Positions 1,134 to 60,958 of a stretch of DNA of 64,000 bases are shown in pieces. The position numbers and the translations under genes are program-made. Every line of letters starts with the position of its first letter. Positions within the stretch are counted from its first letter, which is position 1. The stretch lies in the NCBI RefSeq assembly GCF_003668575.1, contig NZ_RCVZ01000006.1:62001-126000 (forward strand), written 5' to 3'. Below the pieces are notes generated by a model. The model was given only the letters and a program-made list of their open reading frames with translations. It was not told where the DNA came from and did no database searches. The stretch is from Falsibacillus albus. Its GTDB lineage: Bacteria; Bacillota; Bacilli; Bacillales; DSM-25281.

Positions 1134-4037
1134 ATGAAATTAAGGATGTTGAAGGTTGTTTTTTCATTATTGGTCATGAGTGTTATGCTGTTGGGGAATT
1201 TTTTTAACCCAATTATGCAAGCGGTTGCACAAACCGATTCCACAAAAATAATTATTCATTACCAAGAAGCTCCGGATAATCAAAAAGATTGGAATCTATG
1301 GGTATGGCCAGAAGGTGGAGATGGAGCAAAATATGATTTTACTGGTGAAGATGCCTATGGTAAAGTGGCGGAGGTCGAAGTCAGCGGCATCCATCAAAAA
1401 ATTGGATTCATTGTCCGTACTGACAGCTGGGATAAGGACGGCGGGGACAGATGGATTGATACATCCAGCGGTGTTGGTGAAGTATGGGTTAAAGCAGGGG
1501 ATGACCAAACATACACCGCCCCGCCTGATGGGGAATATCGTGATATCCCAAGCTATCAGCATATTAAGGTCAAGATTCACTACCATCGATATGACCAAAA
1601 TTATGATGGATGGAACTTATGGGTATGGAATCCGGAACATGATGGCCAGAAAGTAAATTTTGATGCCATGGATGATTACGGCAAAGTAGCTGAAGTGGAA
1701 TTGAACGATCCGGATGGTATTGAAAAGCTGGGATTCATTGTCAGAAAGAGTACCGAAGGGAATGATTGGGCATCCAAGGATATAGATCACGACCGTTATA
1801 TCACAAGGTTTGATGCTGATGGAACAGCAGAAGTATGGCTCGTCCAGGGGCAGGAGACGATATATGAAAATCAAGGGTTTGTGAATTTGAACCCTGCAAT
1901 TACGCATGCGTCGATAGATGCTTTCAATCAAATTACATTGGAGACAAACGTTCCTTTTTCATTAAAGGATGCAGCCGATCAAATCAAAATAGAAGGTGCT
2001 GATATTGAAAGAGTTGCCTCTTTTGATGATAATTTAACAGATCTGACTAATAAAATCAAAATATTCACAAAGGAAGATCTTGATCTTACCAAGTCGTACA
2101 CTCTTTTATTTAATGATTTTGGTACTAGGGCGATTACGGTCGGAAAAGTGGTACGCTCTGATGAATTTGATCAAAAATATTTTTACGATGGATGGCTTGG
2201 CAATCAGTATGACAAAAAAGAAACGAAATTCACGCTTTGGGCTCCCACTGCTTCTGAAGCAATGCTTGCCGTTTATCCTGATGCTGCATCTGCGGAAACC
2301 AAAGAAATCCCAATGTCTTCAGGCGAAAATGGGACATGGAAAGCAGCTTTAAAAGGAAATCAAGATGGGCTTGTTTATACCTATAAGGTGAAAATCGGCG
2401 GTGTATGGACAGAAGCCGTCGACCCCTATGCGAGGGCAGTAACCATAAATGGCGATCGTGGAGTTGTCGTAGATTTATCAAAAACAAACCCAGATCATTG
2501 GAACAATCATAAACCTGAATTGATTCATCCTGAGGATGCCATCATTTATGAAGCGCATGTGAGGGACTTATCGATTTCACCAAACAGTGGGATTCAGCAT
2601 AAGGGGAAATTTTTAGGTGTTGCCGAAAAGAACACGAAAGGGCCAGATGGAGTCAAAACAGGATTGGATCATATTAAGGCATTAGGTGTTACACATGTCC
2701 AATTCCTGCCAATATTCGATTTTAACAGCATTGATGAAACCAAGCTGGATCAATCGCAGTACAATTGGGGATATGATCCTAAAAATTATAATGTGCCGGA
2801 AGGATCTTATTCAACGGACCCTGCCGATCCTTATGATAGAATCATTGAACTGAAGACAATGATACAAACACTCCATGATAGCAAGCTCAGGATAATCATG
2901 GATGTAGTCTACAACCATGTATTCAGTGCAAGTCAATCCAATTTCCAAAAGTTGGTCCCAGGCTATTATTTCAGGTATAACGAAGACGGAACATTGGCCA
3001 ATGGAACTGGTGTGGGAAATGACACAGCTTCCGAAAGAAAAATGATGAAAAAATTCATTGTCGATTCTGTATCCTATTGGGCCAAGGAATATCATATGGA
3101 TGGATTCCGATTCGATCTAATGGGAATTCATGATACGGGAACGATGAATGCAGTGAGGGACGCATTGAATAAAATCGATCCAAGCATCATTATTCTTGGA
3201 GAAGGCTGGGACCTAAACACACCTTTGGATCCATCCTTGAAGGCGGACCAAAAAAATGCAGAAGATATGCCAGGAATCGCACACTTCAATGACAGTATCC
3301 GTGATGCATTAAAGGGAAGTGTATTCAATGACTTGGATACAGGGTTTGTCAATGGAAAACAAGGGGTAGAGGAGATCATGAAGGAAGGCATACAAGCGGG
3401 CATCAGCTATCCTGATGACATTGCCACTTACCGCGATCCCGAACAAGTAATTAACTATGTCGAAGCCCATGACAACCTGACACTATGGGATAAACTGAAG
3501 CTTACCAACCCAGAGGCTGATGAGGAGACCTTGAAGCAGATGCATAAGCTTGCATCATCCATCCTATTGACATCAGAGGGGATTCCTTTCATTCATGCTG
3601 GGCAGGAGTTCATGAGAACGAAGTATGGGGATCATAATAGCTATCAATCACCAGATTCCATAAATCAACTTGATTGGAGCAGGTGCAGAGAATTTAGTTC
3701 GGAAGTAGACTATGTAAAAGGCCTAATAGAGCTCCGGAAGCACTATAAATCATTCCGTATGACGACTGCAGGAGAAATAGAGAAACAATTGAAATTCATC
3801 CCTGCATCAAAAAATATTGTTGCATACTCATTAAATGCAAAAGCATTGCATGATAAGGCAAATGAGATTGTGGTCATTCACAATGCCAACCAAGAAGAGA
3901 AGACGGTAACACTTCCGTATAGCGGAACCTGGCATCTTCTCGTGAATGGAGAAAAATCAGGAATCCGAACAATAAAAATCATCCACGGCAATAAAGTGAA
4001 TATTTCACCACTATCCACTTTTGTACTGAAAAGGTAA
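1134..4037 (+). CDS. pulA: Secreted type I pullulanase with two CBM41 modules
   Basis: This 967-residue glycoside hydrolase of family GH13 cleaves alpha-1,6 branches in pullulan, amylopectin and related alpha-glucans outside the cell. An N-terminal signal peptide (hydrophobic residues 6-31, cleavage near AVAQ) is followed by two CBM41 starch-binding repeats, each with an NLWVW motif (residues about 35-135 and 145-250), then a CBM48 region (FTLWAPTAS) and the catalytic barrel. The type I signature YNWGYDPKNY starts at residue 543. The expected catalytic residues are Asp661 (FRFDLMG), Glu690 (LGEGWD) and Asp780 (EAHDN). The ribosome binding site AGGGGAGG is seven bases from the ATG. A near-perfect cre box upstream suggests carbon catabolite repression. 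No other starch gene is adjacent. Confidence 0.93.
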   Translation: MKLRMLKVVFSLLVMSVMLLGNFFNPIMQAVAQTDSTKIIIHYQEAPDNQKDWNLWVWPEGGDGAKYDFTGEDAYGKVAEVEVSGIHQKIGFIVRTDSWDKDGGDRWIDTSSGVGEVWVKAGDDQTYTAPPDGEYRDIPSYQHIKVKIHYHRYDQNYDGWNLWVWNPEHDGQKVNFDAMDDYGKVAEVELNDPDGIEKLGFIVRKSTEGNDWASKDIDHDRYITRFDADGTAEVWLVQGQETIYENQGFVNLNPAITHASIDAFNQITLETNVPFSLKDAADQIKIEGADIERVASFDDNLTDLTNKIKIFTKEDLDLTKSYTLLFNDFGTRAITVGKVVRSDEFDQKYFYDGWLGNQYDKKETKFTLWAPTASEAMLAVYPDAASAETKEIPMSSGENGTWKAALKGNQDGLVYTYKVKIGGVWTEAVDPYARAVTINGDRGVVVDLSKTNPDHWNNHKPELIHPEDAIIYEAHVRDLSISPNSGIQHKGKFLGVAEKNTKGPDGVKTGLDHIKALGVTHVQFLPIFDFNSIDETKLDQSQYNWGYDPKNYNVPEGSYSTDPADPYDRIIELKTMIQTLHDSKLRIIMDVVYNHVFSASQSNFQKLVPGYYFRYNEDGTLANGTGVGNDTASERKMMKKFIVDSVSYWAKEYHMDGFRFDLMGIHDTGTMNAVRDALNKIDPSIIILGEGWDLNTPLDPSLKADQKNAEDMPGIAHFNDSIRDALKGSVFNDLDTGFVNGKQGVEEIMKEGIQAGISYPDDIATYRDPEQVINYVEAHDNLTLWDKLKLTNPEADEETLKQMHKLASSILLTSEGIPFIHAGQEFMRTKYGDHNSYQSPDSINQLDWSRCREFSSEVDYVKGLIELRKHYKSFRMTTAGEIEKQLKFIPASKNIVAYSLNAKALHDKANEIVVIHNANQEEKTVTLPYSGTWHLLVNGEKSGIRTIKIIHGNKVNISPLSTFVLKR

Positions 4038-4153
4038 TAGAAAAAAGTTGAGCAGGATTTTTTAGATGCGAATTCGTAAAGATTGTTGTTAAAAATCTTA
4101 CTGCACATTTTAACGCCTAAATAGATGTTTAGCTCGTTGAAATATAGGATCCC

Positions 4154-4249
4154 GGCTCTTTTCTCGCTTATTCGGCCATTTTAAAGTTTAAAAATTAAAT
4201 GGACAATCCTTTTTTAGTTGTTAAAGCAACAAAGTTTGAGAAAAGAGCC
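4154..4249. repeat. 96-bp mini-element with 12-bp inverted-repeat ends
   Basis: GGCTCTTTTCTC (4154-4165) and GAGAAAAGAGCC (4238-4249) are perfect inverted repeats flanking an AT-rich core that includes GTTAAAGCAACAAAGTTTG. It looks like the two ends of the dispersed repeat with the GC-rich middle lost. No ORF is inside. Confidence 0.6.
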
Positions 4250-4257
4250 TTTCAGAA

Positions 4258-4290
4258 AAACGGCTGTGCACCATTGGAGCACAGCCTCTA
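4258..4290 (-). terminator. Terminator of the small secreted-protein gene
   Basis: Read on the minus strand, AGGCTGTGC pairs with GCACAGCC and is followed by GTTTTT. The hairpin starts directly at the stop codon of the 4291-4638 gene. Confidence 0.75.
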
Positions 4291-4638
4291 TTATGTATTA
4301 GACTTATCCAGCAAGTCCGTATTTTTTTCGACGATCGGTATATATTTGCCGCAAAACCCAAATGCCTTAATGATGACCTGGTGCCCGTCAATGGTTTCAA
4401 AGGTTTTCTCCACTGTATTAAAAATCAAATAACCGTTTTCTATGAAGCTGCTAGTTTGTATGATAGGCACACTATTATCCTCTGAGATAACTTGAGAACA
4501 CTCATCATTTTGGCAGCTGACATGATAGTTGTCGGATAGCCAATGGTCAAAATCGGAGAGGGTAGGTCTAAGGTATATTGAAAAAATGAAAAAAATCAAG
4601 AGACAAAAGCCTATTATTTTTTTTGGCCAACGATTCAT
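4291..4638 (-). CDS. Small membrane-anchored or secreted protein, unknown function
   Basis: This is a 115-residue protein that I do not recognise. Residues 1-7 are basic (MNRWPKK) and are followed by a hydrophobic segment of about 16 residues (IIGFCLLIFFIFSIYL), then a soluble domain with three cysteines (two in SCQNDEC, one in FGFCGKY) that could form disulfides outside the cell. The start is set by GGAGG eight bases upstream of the ATG at 4638. A longer frame beginning at 4653 would place its first codons on that ribosome binding site. The gene is monocistronic with its own terminator. A DUF4359-like assignment is possible, but I cannot test it. Confidence 0.6.
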   Translation of the reverse strand: MNRWPKKIIGFCLLIFFIFSIYLRPTLSDFDHWLSDNYHVSCQNDECSQVISEDNSVPIIQTSSFIENGYLIFNTVEKTFETIDGHQVIIKAFGFCGKYIPIVEKNTDLLDKSNT

Positions 4639-4783
4639 GGGATGTACCTCCAACTATGTACTTATAAAAAAATAACATAATTGAAAGAATTTCTCTATCA
4701 TTCCCGTAATAGATTTCACTTATCATTCTTTTGTCCTATGTGATAGTTTTTTATTTCAATGTGCAAAAAGTGAAGGAGCTTCT

Positions 4784-4838
4784 AAATAAGAAGAGGGTAA
4801 CCCAAAAATAGATCATTTGGGCCACCCTCTTCTTATTT
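4784..4838. terminator. Long bidirectional hairpin
   Basis: AAATAAGAAGAGGGT (4784-4798) pairs with ACCCTCTTCTTATTT (4824-4838) over 15 bp, with an inner CCCAAA/TTTGGG stem. No gene ends right beside it. The nearest is the aldehyde dehydrogenase terminator 200 bp away. Confidence 0.55.
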
Positions 4839-4849
4839 ATGCCATTCTA

Positions 4850-5035
4850 ATCAATGGAATTGCTGAGAAAGATTAAATCTACTCCTTCCGCGGACGAATT
4901 GGTAAGCTTCCTCGCCTCGCTGAAGGGAGCTTGCAGGACATAGAATAGATTTCCTTAAATCAACACTGCACGAAGAAAATACGAATGTATTTTCGAGGAG
5001 TCTCGTAGATTCCCTCACAATCACCCAAAATCAAA
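4850..5035. repeat. Degenerate copy of the dispersed intergenic repeat
   Basis: This gene-free stretch carries CTTCCGCGGA, CTCGCCTCGCTGAAGGGAGC, and a hairpin GAAAATAC-GAAT-GTATTTTC followed by GAGGAGTC. The same hairpin context recurs near 21990, with a compensatory base change. No coding potential is evident. Confidence 0.5.
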
Positions 5036-40803: not shown

Positions 40804-40832
40804 TTGACATTTTATATTCAGAAGCATATGAT
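40804..40832 (+). promoter_or_regulatory. Sigma-A promoter of the mutS2-like leader
   Basis: TTGACA (40804-40809), 17 bases, and TATGAT (40827-40832) form a near-consensus vegetative promoter. The start point should be near 40839. Confidence 0.8.
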
Positions 40833-40838
40833 AGTGTT

Positions 40839-41057
40839 GTAATATTCATTATTATCTGCATTCAAAGGAGTAATGTTTTATGATGGGTGTCGTTCTTAAC
40901 TAATCCGTAATTTTATACGGTCATTCCAACAGGCCCGTCCGAAAAAAGCGATTTCGGATATCTATTTGTCATGCCTGAGGAATGAATGTTAAGAACAATG
41001 GTCATAGCTCATTAATTCCTATTTAGGAAAGCTGTGTATCGTGCACAGCTTTTTTTA
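40839..41057 (+). ncRNA. Structured leader RNA or small RNA with seven-codon ORF
   Basis: The predicted transcript begins at the promoter above and ends at an intrinsic terminator (AAAGCTGTG/CACAGCTTT then TTTTTTT, 41028-41057). It holds a seven-codon ORF (40880-40903, MMGVVLN) with an ideal AAAGGAG site. Its last codons GTTCTTAAC (40892-40900) pair with GTTAAGAAC (40988-40996). Inside lie a hairpin 40905-40920 (CCGTA/TACGG) and an arm TCATTCC/GGAATGA (40921-40927 with 40979-40985) capped by AGGC/GCCT and CCGAAA/TTTCGG. GGAATGAATG (40979-40988) can instead pair with CATTAATTCC (41010-41019). I know of no named family with this layout. Confidence 0.65.
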
Positions 41058-41118
41058 TTGTCCATGTACAATATACCTAAATCATTTAATAGCTTTTTGG
41101 CGTTTTTTCGCTGAATGG

Positions 41119-41156
41119 ACCGCAATGAACATTGTTCATTGCGGTTTTATTTTTTG
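41119..41156 (+). terminator. Second terminator in the mutS2-like leader
   Basis: ACCGCAATGAAC (41119-41130) and GTTCATTGCGGT (41134-41145) form a perfect 12-bp stem with an ATT loop, followed by TTTTATTTTTTG. It lies about 50 bp before the mutS2-like start codon. Confidence 0.88.
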
Positions 41157-41207
41157 TTCAATGAAAATTCGTCAAGGGGAAATCCACATTCTTTAGGAGG
41201 AAAAACA

Positions 41208-43142
41208 TTGAATTCTCAAACCTTTGACGTTCTTGATTTTACACGGATCAAGGAAGAAGCTGCACAGTATGTCATTACGGAATCTGGTAGGAAAGCGGTG
41301 CTTGAGATCATGCCATCGGTCAACTTAAAACAGATTAATCGTTGGTTGGATGAAGTGACCGAAGCAAAGGCAATCTTATTAAAATCATCCAGCGTGCCCA
41401 TCCATGGTTTGGAAGGCATCGAACGGCTGATGAAGCAATTGAACAAAGGTGTCCCATTAAGGCCGGAAGCTTTAAGTAAGTTGTATGGTTTTTTGGATAG
41501 CTGCCGGAAATTGAAAAGATTCATGAAGGACAAAGAATTTGTAGCGCCAAGAGTGTCCTCCTATGTATATTCTTATGAAGAAATCCCGCTTTTGGCAGAA
41601 GAAATTCAACGGTGCATCAGAAACGGGATGATCGATGATTATGCAAGCAAGGAATTGCTCAAAGTCAGAAAACAGATTTCAATCAGTGAGGAGCGGTTGA
41701 AAGAAAAGCTTGGCCAAATGGTGAAATCGAAAAAATATGCCCCATATTTGCAGGAATCCATCATCAGTGAAAGGAATGGGAGGCACGTGCTATCTGTAAA
41801 AAAAGAATATAAAGGAAAAATTAAAGGTTCGGTGCTGGATTCATCAGCATCAGGCTCGACGCTGTTTATTGAACCTGCAGATATCACCGGCATACAGGAA
41901 GAAATTTTCTACTTGAAAGCGGATGAAACGGTTGAATGTGAACGAATATTAAGCTATCTAACCGGATTGGTCGAAGCAAATCAACAGCAGATATTTTTGG
42001 CGGTGGAAACAATGATTCATTATGATGTATTGTTTGCCAAAGCGAAATACAGCCGTGCCATTGAAGCGATAGCCCCTGGACTCAATGAAGAACATTTTAT
42101 TTCCCTGATTGGAGCACGCCATCCACTTCTAGGTAATCAGGCAGTCCCTCTTACAATAGAAATGGGAGAAGGAAATGATGCACTAGTCGTAACCGGCCCT
42201 AATACCGGCGGGAAAACCGTTGCACTTAAGACGGTCGGTTTACTTACCCTTATGGTGCAAGCAGGATTCCATATTCCTGCAGAGGAAGGATCTGAAATTT
42301 GTATTTTCCAAAAAGTGCTTGTCGATATCGGGGATGGCCAAAGCATCGAACAAAACTTAAGCACATTCAGTTCAAGAATCGTGAATATCATTTCCATCTT
42401 AAAAGAAGCAAACGAGAGGAGCCTATTATTGATCGATGAAATCGGATCAGGGACCGATCCAAGTGAAGGGATGGGGCTCGCGACAGCCATTTTGGAAGAG
42501 TTGTATAACAAAGGGGCCATGATGCTTGCCACGACACATTATAATGAAATTAAAGAGTTCGCAGATTCTCACGAAGGCTTCATGAATGGGTCCATGGAGT
42601 TTGATCTTGAATCACTTCAGCCTACCTATAGGCTAATTGTCGGAAAAGGCGGAGAGAGCCAGGCGTTCGCGATTGCCCAACGCTTGGGCGTGCATCCAAA
42701 GATCATTCAAAAAGCTCACAAAATCACCTATAAGGAAGAAAAGGGTTATGACGGTGAATGGTTATCGTCCATGGATAGAAGGGAAATGGATAGACAATTG
42801 GCGCAAAACCGCTATATTCGGAAATATGGGAAAAGGAATACGGAAAAGAAGAGGCAAAAAGATACTAGCGTTTATAAGCAAGGGGATAATGTGGAAATCA
42901 TGGCCAGCGGAGAGTATGGGATTGTGTATAAAGGGCCAGATGAAAAAGGCAATTATATTGTCCAAGTCAAAGGAGATAAGCAAATAATCAATCAAAAGAG
43001 AATCAGCCTATACATTGAAGCTGCAGAATTGTATCCCGAGGATTATGATTTTTCCATCATATTTGACAGCAAAGAAAATCGAAAAATAGGCAAACAAATG
43101 AACAAGGGACATGTTGAGGGGATGAGTAAGGATATGGAATGA
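41208..43142 (+). CDS. MutS2-type ATPase lacking the Smr domain
   Basis: This protein of about 644 residues has the MutS2 core and clamp (residues 1-310) and a MutS ATPase: Walker A GPNTGGKT (about residue 330), Walker B LLLIDEIGSGTDPSEG and the switch ATTHYNEIKEF. A KOW-like segment follows (QGDNVEIMASGEYGIVYKG). It ends without the C-terminal Smr nuclease domain of full MutS2 (about 785 residues). MutS2 proteins bind branched DNA and, in B. subtilis, collided ribosomes. This shorter paralogue would keep the ATPase but not cleave. AGGAGG lies seven bases before the TTG at 41208. A long leader with two terminators precedes it. Confidence 0.82.
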   Translation: MNSQTFDVLDFTRIKEEAAQYVITESGRKAVLEIMPSVNLKQINRWLDEVTEAKAILLKSSSVPIHGLEGIERLMKQLNKGVPLRPEALSKLYGFLDSCRKLKRFMKDKEFVAPRVSSYVYSYEEIPLLAEEIQRCIRNGMIDDYASKELLKVRKQISISEERLKEKLGQMVKSKKYAPYLQESIISERNGRHVLSVKKEYKGKIKGSVLDSSASGSTLFIEPADITGIQEEIFYLKADETVECERILSYLTGLVEANQQQIFLAVETMIHYDVLFAKAKYSRAIEAIAPGLNEEHFISLIGARHPLLGNQAVPLTIEMGEGNDALVVTGPNTGGKTVALKTVGLLTLMVQAGFHIPAEEGSEICIFQKVLVDIGDGQSIEQNLSTFSSRIVNIISILKEANERSLLLIDEIGSGTDPSEGMGLATAILEELYNKGAMMLATTHYNEIKEFADSHEGFMNGSMEFDLESLQPTYRLIVGKGGESQAFAIAQRLGVHPKIIQKAHKITYKEEKGYDGEWLSSMDRREMDRQLAQNRYIRKYGKRNTEKKRQKDTSVYKQGDNVEIMASGEYGIVYKGPDEKGNYIVQVKGDKQIINQKRISLYIEAAELYPEDYDFSIIFDSKENRKIGKQMNKGHVEGMSKDME

Positions 43143-43309: not shown

Positions 43310-43530
43310 TTTGAGCGGAAGGTGTGAGACTCCGGAGGGATCAGCGGTCAGATTAGGCCCCTAGTCGAAGCCGAGAGAGGTTGGGCGGATGTTCGATTAA
43401 GTTCGGCACGTCGTGTGCCAACATCGAATGACCTCACTTCGTGTGAGGCCCCTTGGATAGCGAGCATCCTGCAGCGGAAATCAACCTCACTCCCCATTAA
43501 AAAAACAGCAACAAACTTTACGAAATGAGA
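43310..43530 (-). repeat. Long dispersed-repeat copy with nested palindrome
   Basis: Read on the minus strand it has the full landmarks: GGCCTCACACGAAGTGAGGT, the CGATGTTGGCACACGACGTG palindrome, GAACTTAATCGAACATCCGC, and the outer end ACAAACTTTACGAAA. It fills most of the gap between the mutS2-like gene and pepF. The part before it (43143-43300) holds no gene that I can support. Confidence 0.8.
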
Positions 43531-60666: not shown

Positions 60667-60958
60667 TACACCGCTGTTGATTTCCGTGCAGGACTTCGCT
60701 TTCCGCGGGGCCTCACACGAAGTGAGGTCGTTCGATGTTGGTACACGACGTGCCGAACTTAATCGAACATCCGCCTTACTTCTCCTCGCTATGCTGCGGG
60801 GTCTCACCTGTCTAGATCTGGGGCTTAGGGGCTCGAGGTCATAAGCCCCTAGGCAAAGCCCCGCCGCTTTTCTAACTATCCCGCTAATCCCGCCGGAGTC
60901 TTCGTATTGCACTCCATTCAACACCTAGAATATGCTAATAACAACAAATACGCTTTAA
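60667..60958 (+). repeat. Largest dispersed-repeat copy
   Basis: It runs from CACCGCTGTTGATTTCCGTG to CAACAAATACGCTTTAACAT. It includes GGCCTCACACGAAGTGAGGT, GTTCGATGTTGGTACACGAC, the GGGGCTTAGGGGCTCGAGG palindrome shared with the 13.6-kb copy, and CCGCCGGAGTCTTCG. It fills the gap between two convergent genes, with no ORF of its own. Confidence 0.82.

Follow-up and report, generated by a model that had tools for sequence, protein, structure and literature searches.

Upstream of a gene for a MutS2-like ATPase, in a 64,000-nucleotide stretch of Falsibacillus albus DNA (contig NZ_RCVZ01000006.1, positions 62,001 to 126,000 of the forward strand; this whole stretch is the window, and positions given without a locus are its own), lies a leader with a promoter, a Shine-Dalgarno (SD) sequence, a seven-codon upstream open reading frame (uORF), a three-way junction and two intrinsic terminators. 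The layout had been proposed from the letters of the window alone, in an original prediction that placed a near-consensus promoter ahead of a seven-codon reading frame with a ribosome binding site, put the last three codons of that frame in a 9-bp stem closing the junction, and set two terminators ahead of the gene. The leader so described is real, and its parts are as follows.

40804..40832, + strand: sigma-A-type promoter, TTGACA-17-TATGAT, 11 of 12 consensus matches
40864..40870, + strand: SD sequence ahead of the uORF, AAAGGAG, enclosed in the extended anti-antiterminator stem
40880..40903, + strand: uORF, ATG ATG GGT GTC GTT CTT AAC TAA, encoding MMGVVLN-stop, seven codons
40892..40900, + strand: 5' strand of stem P1, GTTCTTAAC, uORF codons 5-7
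40905..40920, + strand: hairpin P2, CCGTA-loop-TACGG, directly 3' of the stop codon
40921..40985, + strand: arm P3, with an inner hairpin at 40937-40959
40962..40967, + strand: CTATTT after the inner P3 hairpin, one mismatch from the NusG pause motif TTNTTT, at a place where the leaders conserve a similar T-rich motif
40988..40996, + strand: 3' strand of P1, GTTAAGAAC, placed by folding, alignment and leader comparison
40993..41004, + strand: antiterminator 2 (AT2), GAACAATGGTCA, whose partner is the top of T2, from covariation and folding
41003..41009, + strand: antiterminator 1 (AT1), CATAGCT, whose partner is AGCTGTG at 41030-41036 of T1
about 41027..41056, + strand: intrinsic terminator T1, seen by folding and missed by the pattern scan
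41117..41147, + strand: intrinsic terminator T2, found by the pattern scan, its centre CATTGTTC (41130-41137) complementary to 40993-41000
41208..43142, + strand: Smr-less MutS2-like ATPase gene, 644 aa, TTG start, SD sequence AGGAGG at 41195-41200

The nine pairs of P1 (40892-40900 with 40988-40996) close P2 and P3 in the minimum free energy and centroid folds alike. The fold energy of 40840-41060 is -67.1 kcal/mol, whereas shuffles average -42.5 (z -6.1) and none of 200 is as good; that of 40880-41000 is -36.1 kcal/mol (z -4.07 against shuffles). The leader has no match to any Rfam family at the gathering score.

The product of the downstream gene is, as the original prediction had it, a relative of MutS2 that lacks the Smr domain. 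It scores 612 bits against the MutS2 model TIGR01069 (cut-off 400), with a match that covers only model positions 1-519 of 790, and MutS_V alone is found by Pfam. The C-terminal Smr domain is absent by both of these measures and by alignment to the MutS2 of the same genome, a separate, full protein of 800 aa with 40% identity to the MutS2-like protein over 505 aligned columns. The core/lever, clamp and ABC ATPase domains of MutS2 are present, the ATPase motifs GPNTGGKT and DE(I/L)G(S/A)GTDP are retained in 20/20 aligned rows, and the closest solved structures by sequence are those of Bacillus subtilis MutS2 (PDB 7qv3 and 8qpp). A KOW-like segment is possible, as a profile alignment lands weakly on the KOW segment (E 0.0046, probability 7.6%), and an AlphaFold2 model built with five sequences, poor overall (mean predicted local distance difference test score of 55), holds a small five-strand unit at about residues 561-601.

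In B. subtilis MutS2, ribosome splitting is done by the ATPase, and KOW or Smr mutants show only very modest erythromycin sensitivity (PMC10897456), which means that a protein lacking Smr could still be functional. The B. subtilis protein does have the Smr domain, whereas the leader-controlled protein is without it and has weak KOW similarity. The Smr-less paralogue most likely acts on inhibited ribosomes, and its action would probably be to split them, like that of MutS2 and, as is supposed, of HflXr in Listeria.

Conservation and covariation of the leader

Matches to the gene at E <= 1e-130 occur in 173 of the 397 genomes of the order, including a distant subgroup with ~40-43% identity, and 1 to 1.5 kb of DNA was read ahead of 134 genes, in sets of 34 (30 loci from the gene searches and 4 named records) and 100. 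The leader is present ahead of 117 of the 118 MutS-like genes with at least 48% identity. In the first set, 33 loci carry the exact leader motif and the 34th a variant with the uORF MLSVVFN. Among the 84 such genes of the second set, the exact motif is found in 81, including one (L072) whose real leader differs from a chance match of the motif search, two leaders are variants, one with the uORF MLSVVLD (L089) and one with a compensatory change in P1 (L118), and the one gene left over, L081, has a divergent leader. A further fifteen listed matches with at least 48% identity were scored at the level of the genome, and the covariance model of the leader, R1, matches each. Across the searched sets, R1 finds the leader in 135/397 genomes of the order and 20/398 of the phylum, and the broader model R2 in 87/398 of the class. 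Viral contigs gave 0 matches to the leader pattern, and the plasmid collection a single record, Cytobacillus spongiae NZ_CP089998.1, where positions 541242-541435 of a 690-kb replicon are leader-like with 73.4% identity.

All 117 leaders have a uORF of exactly seven codons and an SD-like sequence. The uORFs encode 27 distinct peptides in which residues 2-4 vary freely, while the end is V-L-N or I-L-N in 115 and codon 7 is AAC in 115. All nine positions of P1 are paired in 112. As a side observation, the MutS-like genes of four loci (L142, L143, L147 and L148) are broken in frame with the leader still found, that of L143 by covariance model only and without the exact uORF motif.

The permutation tests used 101 of 116 leaders, which fell into 61 clusters; those excluded lay over 300 nt away from the gene or scored below 8 for the 3' arm. 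The promoter match in the window is weak evidence taken alone, since promoter-like sites in the scanned stretch (3, against a shuffle mean of 3.5) are no commoner than in shuffles, and conservation is thus the real evidence for a leader promoter: a sigma-A-like promoter lies within 85 nt ahead of the SD sequence in 53/61 cluster representatives, compared with a mean of 6.35 and a maximum of 12 in shuffles. TTNTTT follows the inner P3 hairpin in 49/61 representatives, against 19% expected.

The original prediction had named covariation among homologous leaders as the means of checking the junction, and P2, P3, the stem covering the SD sequence and, in a diverse set, P1 do covary. Alignment with MAFFT and RNAalifold recovers P1 alone, because P3 varies in length, and duplex tests were therefore used in which each leader's own strands are compared with strands swapped among the 61 representatives. 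The 5' and 3' flanks of P3 pair at -14.17 kcal/mol with their own partners versus -6.26 when swapped, and P2 at -4.30 versus -3.12 (0/10000 permutations for each). The stretch from the SD sequence to codon 4 pairs with the region after P1 at -12.24 versus -10.35 kcal/mol (0/10000), and for the SD sequence and spacer alone with the 3' side, again 0/10000 permutations were as good; a control upstream of the SD sequence showed no covariation (1205/10000). P1 itself is nearly invariant within the VLN group, with compensatory change at 1/9 pairs. In a diverse set of 31 leaders, compensatory change is seen at 3/9 pairs with 98.2% of cells paired, and the covariation score of 0.125 exceeds those of shuffles (mean 0.054, 0/500 as high) and of slid versions (at most 0.023), although the weaker loci of this set were found with a model in which P1 adds to the score, a possible source of some bias.

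A conserved junction would also be expected of a riboswitch that binds a drug or metabolite directly. Such a reading is extremely improbable, as P3 conserves its pairing more than its sequence, the most conserved leader sequence is the uORF and its complement, and induction of hflXr is abolished when ribosomes are protected by ErmC, which speaks against direct sensing (PMC6310831).

The strands that would oppose the terminators were sought among conserved pairings. The alternative pairing of the original prediction, 40979-40988 with 41010-41019, can be drawn by eye (9/10 pairs), but it is not conserved, with 8624/10000 permutations as good, and it was rejected. The supported antiterminator pairings are those of 41003-41009 with 41030-41036 in T1, and of 40993-41004 with the top of T2 (CATTGTTC and flank), in which the P1 3' strand, once freed, offers GAACAATG (40993-41000) as the complement of the T2 top. 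From the P1 3' strand onward (AAGAACNNNN...), leaders pair with their own T2 centre at -9.07 versus -6.88 kcal/mol when swapped (0/20000, 61 clusters). With one leader per sequence type (31), the result is again 0/20000, or 1/20000 for the variable part alone; a looser test against the whole downstream stretch gave 15/20000, and four shifted controls were null (2356 to 4863 of 5000). The two strands change together as matched pairs of 3' strand and T2, namely GAACAATG/CATTGTTC, GAACAAATC/GGTTTGTTC, GAACACAG/CTGTGTTC, CAATGAAT/ATTCATTG and ACAAGC/GCTTGT. T2 was found in 111/115 leaders and T1 in 97/115, which makes T2 the more consistently present of the two; where the gene lies over 300 nt away from the leader, the search covered 260 nt past the 3' arm, which may explain the missing T2s. 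By comparison of leaders and in silico, then, the antiterminators are mutually exclusive with the intrinsic terminators ahead of the gene.

This pairing bears on whether the leader is instead a separate small RNA that ends at T1, the gene being expressed by other means, as the original prediction had also allowed (with an end at 41057). Terminated leaders can accumulate as small RNAs, and the tet(M) leader is the Rfam family RF02864 (sRNA_0030), an enterococcal small RNA upstream of tet(M) (PMC5593968), so a by-product of this kind is possible. As an account of the whole locus it is very unlikely, as the scan at its threshold found nothing promoter-like from 41057 to the gene, the leader is kept upstream in 117/118 cases, and the covarying pairing with T2, which lies past the end of such an RNA, would be left unexplained.

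The same module before other genes

The leader is found ahead of genes other than those for MutS-like proteins. In the class, 46 places were read (26 new loci returned and 20 picked for diversity, which makes the counts no measure of frequency), with 26 MutS-like genes, 13 genes for a BpsA-like polyamine synthase, 4 Tet ribosomal protection genes, and one each of a GNAT gene, an LmrB/EmrB-like MFS exporter and an APH-fold gene downstream; labels are by eye, except that one example of each non-MutS type was tested. The 21 places in the phylum comprise 11 MutS-like genes (3 by position in the gene search), 6 Tet genes, and one each of an ABC exporter, an ABC-F gene, a serine hydrolase and an unclear gene. 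Ten places in the order, being second copies or lacking a full-length protein match, hold a GNAT gene (two genomes), a methyltransferase gene (two), an alpha/beta hydrolase, a decayed BpsA-like gene and the four frame-broken MutS-like genes. The Tet(M) (NF012155) and ABC-F (NF000355) genes score above the NCBIfam cut-offs, and Pfam is the basis for calling the others GNAT, APH-fold, methyltransferase, hydrolase and BpsA genes.

Before most of these genes the uORF again has seven codons (MRQGILK, MIKGVLK, MIMLVLK, MSVFVLN, and KVVVLN after a TTG); the leaders of L158 and L159 were read in part only. In 21 leaders, 14 before other genes and 7 before MutS-like genes, the 3' strand pairs with the centre of its own terminator at -10.85 versus -8.06 kcal/mol (0/20000), and in a Tet(W/O)-like leader the match runs over 14 consecutive pairs. 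The GNAT, methyltransferase, alpha/beta hydrolase, APH-fold and serine hydrolase genes found after the leader (L139, L140, L145, L146, L141, L206 and L168) are candidate antibiotic-modifying enzymes. The BpsA-like branched polyamine synthase genes, with a label checked by Pfam in L180, follow the leader in L178-L181, L183, L188, L189, L191, L192, L194, L195, L213 and L215, hinting at polyamine synthesis as a translation-stress response.

In the case of the tet(M)/tet(W)-type leaders (L161, at about 1516-1539 of that locus, L157 and L202-L205), the uORF is MRQGILK with the P1 design. They resemble the MutS-like leaders in having been found by the R1 model, which holds no tet leader, in their seven-codon uORF with P1 formed from its last codons and hairpins after it (by eye), and in a 3' strand complementary to the terminator top. 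They differ in sequence, in having one strong terminator, and in the tetracycline protection GTPase downstream. The L161 locus passes the gathering score of RF02864, whereas the window leader fails it. The seven-codon uORF MRQGILK may be the real sensor of these leaders. The reading frame orf12 of tet(M) presumably lies downstream of it. Regulation of tet(M) by transcription attenuation is reported (Su et al. 1992, as cited in a table of PMC5418344); tetracycline or other translation inhibitors are said to lift the attenuation in part, with orf12 as the leader peptide (PMC9154091). No paper naming the seven-codon uORF was found in the open full text of PubMed Central, which leaves subscription papers mostly outside.

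A second leader type precedes the distant subgroup of MutS-like genes (16 genes, L119-L134, 41-43% identity). These had served as a leaderless negative set, a use refuted by the finding of their own seven-codon leader in 16/16. Its sequence is different, with weak same-strand R2 matches in 8/16 (E 0.0004 to 0.37), and the uORF, exactly seven codons in 16/16, is mostly MSGVVSK or VSAVGSK. The 3' half of the uORF faces a downstream strand that is GAAGATACCTA in 15 and GAATACCTA in 1. The terminator top, found by script, is GGTATC in 8/16, exactly complementary to GATACC, and GGGATC in 6/16, with one mismatch; the motif search found none in 2/16. In 13/16, a second uORF-like copy, AGGTATCT (once AGGTGTCT), lies 44-54 nt ahead of the gene and suggests an added control of translation.

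A short uORF with a fixed end would also suit an attenuator of the trp/his type that responds to starvation for valine, leucine or asparagine. This is highly improbable, as the downstream genes are mostly not biosynthetic, the residues differ between the leader types, and there is no run of codons.

Probable ribosome-mediated attenuation and its rivals

The leader is very probably a ribosome-mediated transcription attenuator that drives the Smr-less MutS2 paralogue, and it is probably induced by translation inhibitors. The original prediction of an attenuator sensing impaired translation is supported by the fixed length of the uORF, the covarying junction, antiterminators that change with their terminators, and the same module before resistance genes. 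From the anatomy, conservation, covariation, mutually exclusive in silico folds and association with resistance genes observed here, we infer the ribosome stalling, inducing drugs, RNA polymerase pausing and protein activity of the following scheme. In unstressed cells, the uORF would be translated and the ribosome would leave. As polymerase transcribes 40988-41020, the 3' strand would fold back over the uORF and its SD sequence, P1 and its extension acting as an anti-antiterminator; T1 and T2 would then form and transcription would stop ahead of the gene. A ribosome stalled at the start codon or farther along the uORF, as a ribosome-targeting antibiotic might cause, would mask the 5' strand of P1, and the freed 3' strand would serve as a double antiterminator: CATAGCT would pair with T1 in its left arm, and GAACAATGGTCA with T2 at its top. 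Both terminators would be disarmed, resulting in read-through into the MutS2-like gene.

Folding of the growing transcript is consistent with this order of events. With no ribosome, P1 forms and then the stem covering the SD sequence, and none of the 19 lengths folded shows an antiterminator; the anti-antiterminator exceeds the nine pairs originally predicted, as it also folds over the SD sequence and start of the uORF. When 40866-40916 is kept single-stranded, AT1 forms with 5-7 pairs at transcript ends 41034-41046 and AT2 with 9-12 pairs at ends 41134-41140 (12 at 41137 and 41140), before the terminators are complete. A footprint of a ribosome on the start codon (to 40895) likewise frees both antiterminators at the ends tested. 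In Escherichia coli, tetracycline holds ribosomes on start codons with a leading edge at +16 to +18 (PMC12121999). Those positions map to 40895-40897, within P1, and a start-codon-stalled ribosome with its leading edge there may be the reason that codons 5-7 lie in the stem and that the length of the uORF is kept.

Alternatively, the V-L-N end could be an exit-tunnel stalling motif through which the nascent peptide arrests the ribosome in the presence of one drug class. The near-constant last residues and AAC codon would fit, and the tlrB and hflXr leaders do use peptide arrest motifs (PMC6851288, PMC6310831). The nine VLN nucleotides are, however, the P1 strand, and RNA pairing alone could conserve them. 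Residues 2-4 are free to vary, the Tet leaders end in ILK and those of the second type mostly in SK, and in silico the start-codon footprint already frees both antiterminators. Peptide-dependent arrest is thus rather unlikely.

Several observations weigh against attenuation by a stalled ribosome as set out above. At equilibrium, the completed T1 and T2 beat the antiterminators, so the attenuator model needs kinetics and timing. T1 was not found in 18/115 leaders, and the covariation of its left arm with the CATAGC region is weaker (64/20000). Codons 1-4 of the uORF do not covary with the next 13 nt (1377/10000), and the same codons, intended as a control against T2, were not null (3/5000), because the T2 centre is self-complementary. 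The window leader is among the 12 representatives without an exact TTNTTT. The length of the uORF has exceptions, with nine codons in the divergent leader of one MutS-like gene (L081) and, by reading, five in L141 and L167, six in L140, nine in L160 and fourteen in L198. Lastly, BpsA and the beta-lactamase-fold hydrolase are not obvious translation-inhibitor resistance genes, and some weak leader matches near E 0.001 may be chance.

Ribosome-mediated attenuators are an already known class, and three of them can be set beside this leader, their layouts compared by description. The vmlR leader of B. subtilis shares a uORF inside an anti-antiterminator, an antiterminator and an intrinsic terminator, has a NusG pause motif to which the T-rich motif here may correspond, and differs in its three-codon uORF, a further hairpin sequestering the SD sequence, and its ABC-F gene (PMC9226507). 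The tlrB (yxjB) leader of B. subtilis likewise has a leader peptide and a terminator, and its NusG-dependent pausing may have a counterpart here; it differs in a nine-codon uORF bearing an RYR arrest motif, an rRNA methyltransferase gene downstream, and a stalled ribosome that is itself held to block the terminator (PMC6851288). The T-rich motif after the inner P3 hairpin recalls the NusG-dependent pauses of both (PMC9226507, PMC6851288). For the third, the protein belongs to a different family, HflXr being an HflX-type protein and no relative of MutS2. The hflXr/rli80 leader of Listeria is nonetheless the closest known concept, being a ribosome-dependent attenuator with a paralogue of a ribosome-splitting factor under its control, although its uORF has 14 codons with an RLR motif (PMC6310831).

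In open PubMed Central, where subscription papers are mostly outside, no description was found of the leader family, of one strand addressing two successive terminators, or of the link to an Smr-less MutS2; searches there likewise found no description of a role for such a paralogue. Taken together, and with a confidence only a little beyond even, the leaders may constitute a widespread, unnamed class of attenuator, usually with a seven-codon uORF and a freed strand that disarms one or two terminators, which has spread or repeatedly evolved before translation-stress genes of the Bacillota; its main client would be a novel type of inducible factor for resistance or tolerance, a MutS2 that splits ribosomes stalled by antibiotics while lacking the Smr domain with which collisions are read, and the tet(M) sensor would be the seven-codon uORF and not orf12. 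Such regulation would tie the MutS2 paralogue to translation stress and provide a testable case, beyond HflXr, for inducible resistance by ribosome splitting, and a re-reading of the classic tet(M) attenuator is suggested. One RNA signature would also serve to find resistance-type genes (tet(M), ABC-F, efflux, modifying enzymes, and unknowns such as BpsA) with no prior knowledge of the gene.

The only Rfam family matched in the window is RF01690, with two Bacillaceae-1 RNAs, one at 43381-43447 (+ strand), just 3' of the MutS-like gene, and the other at 60712-60778 (- strand).

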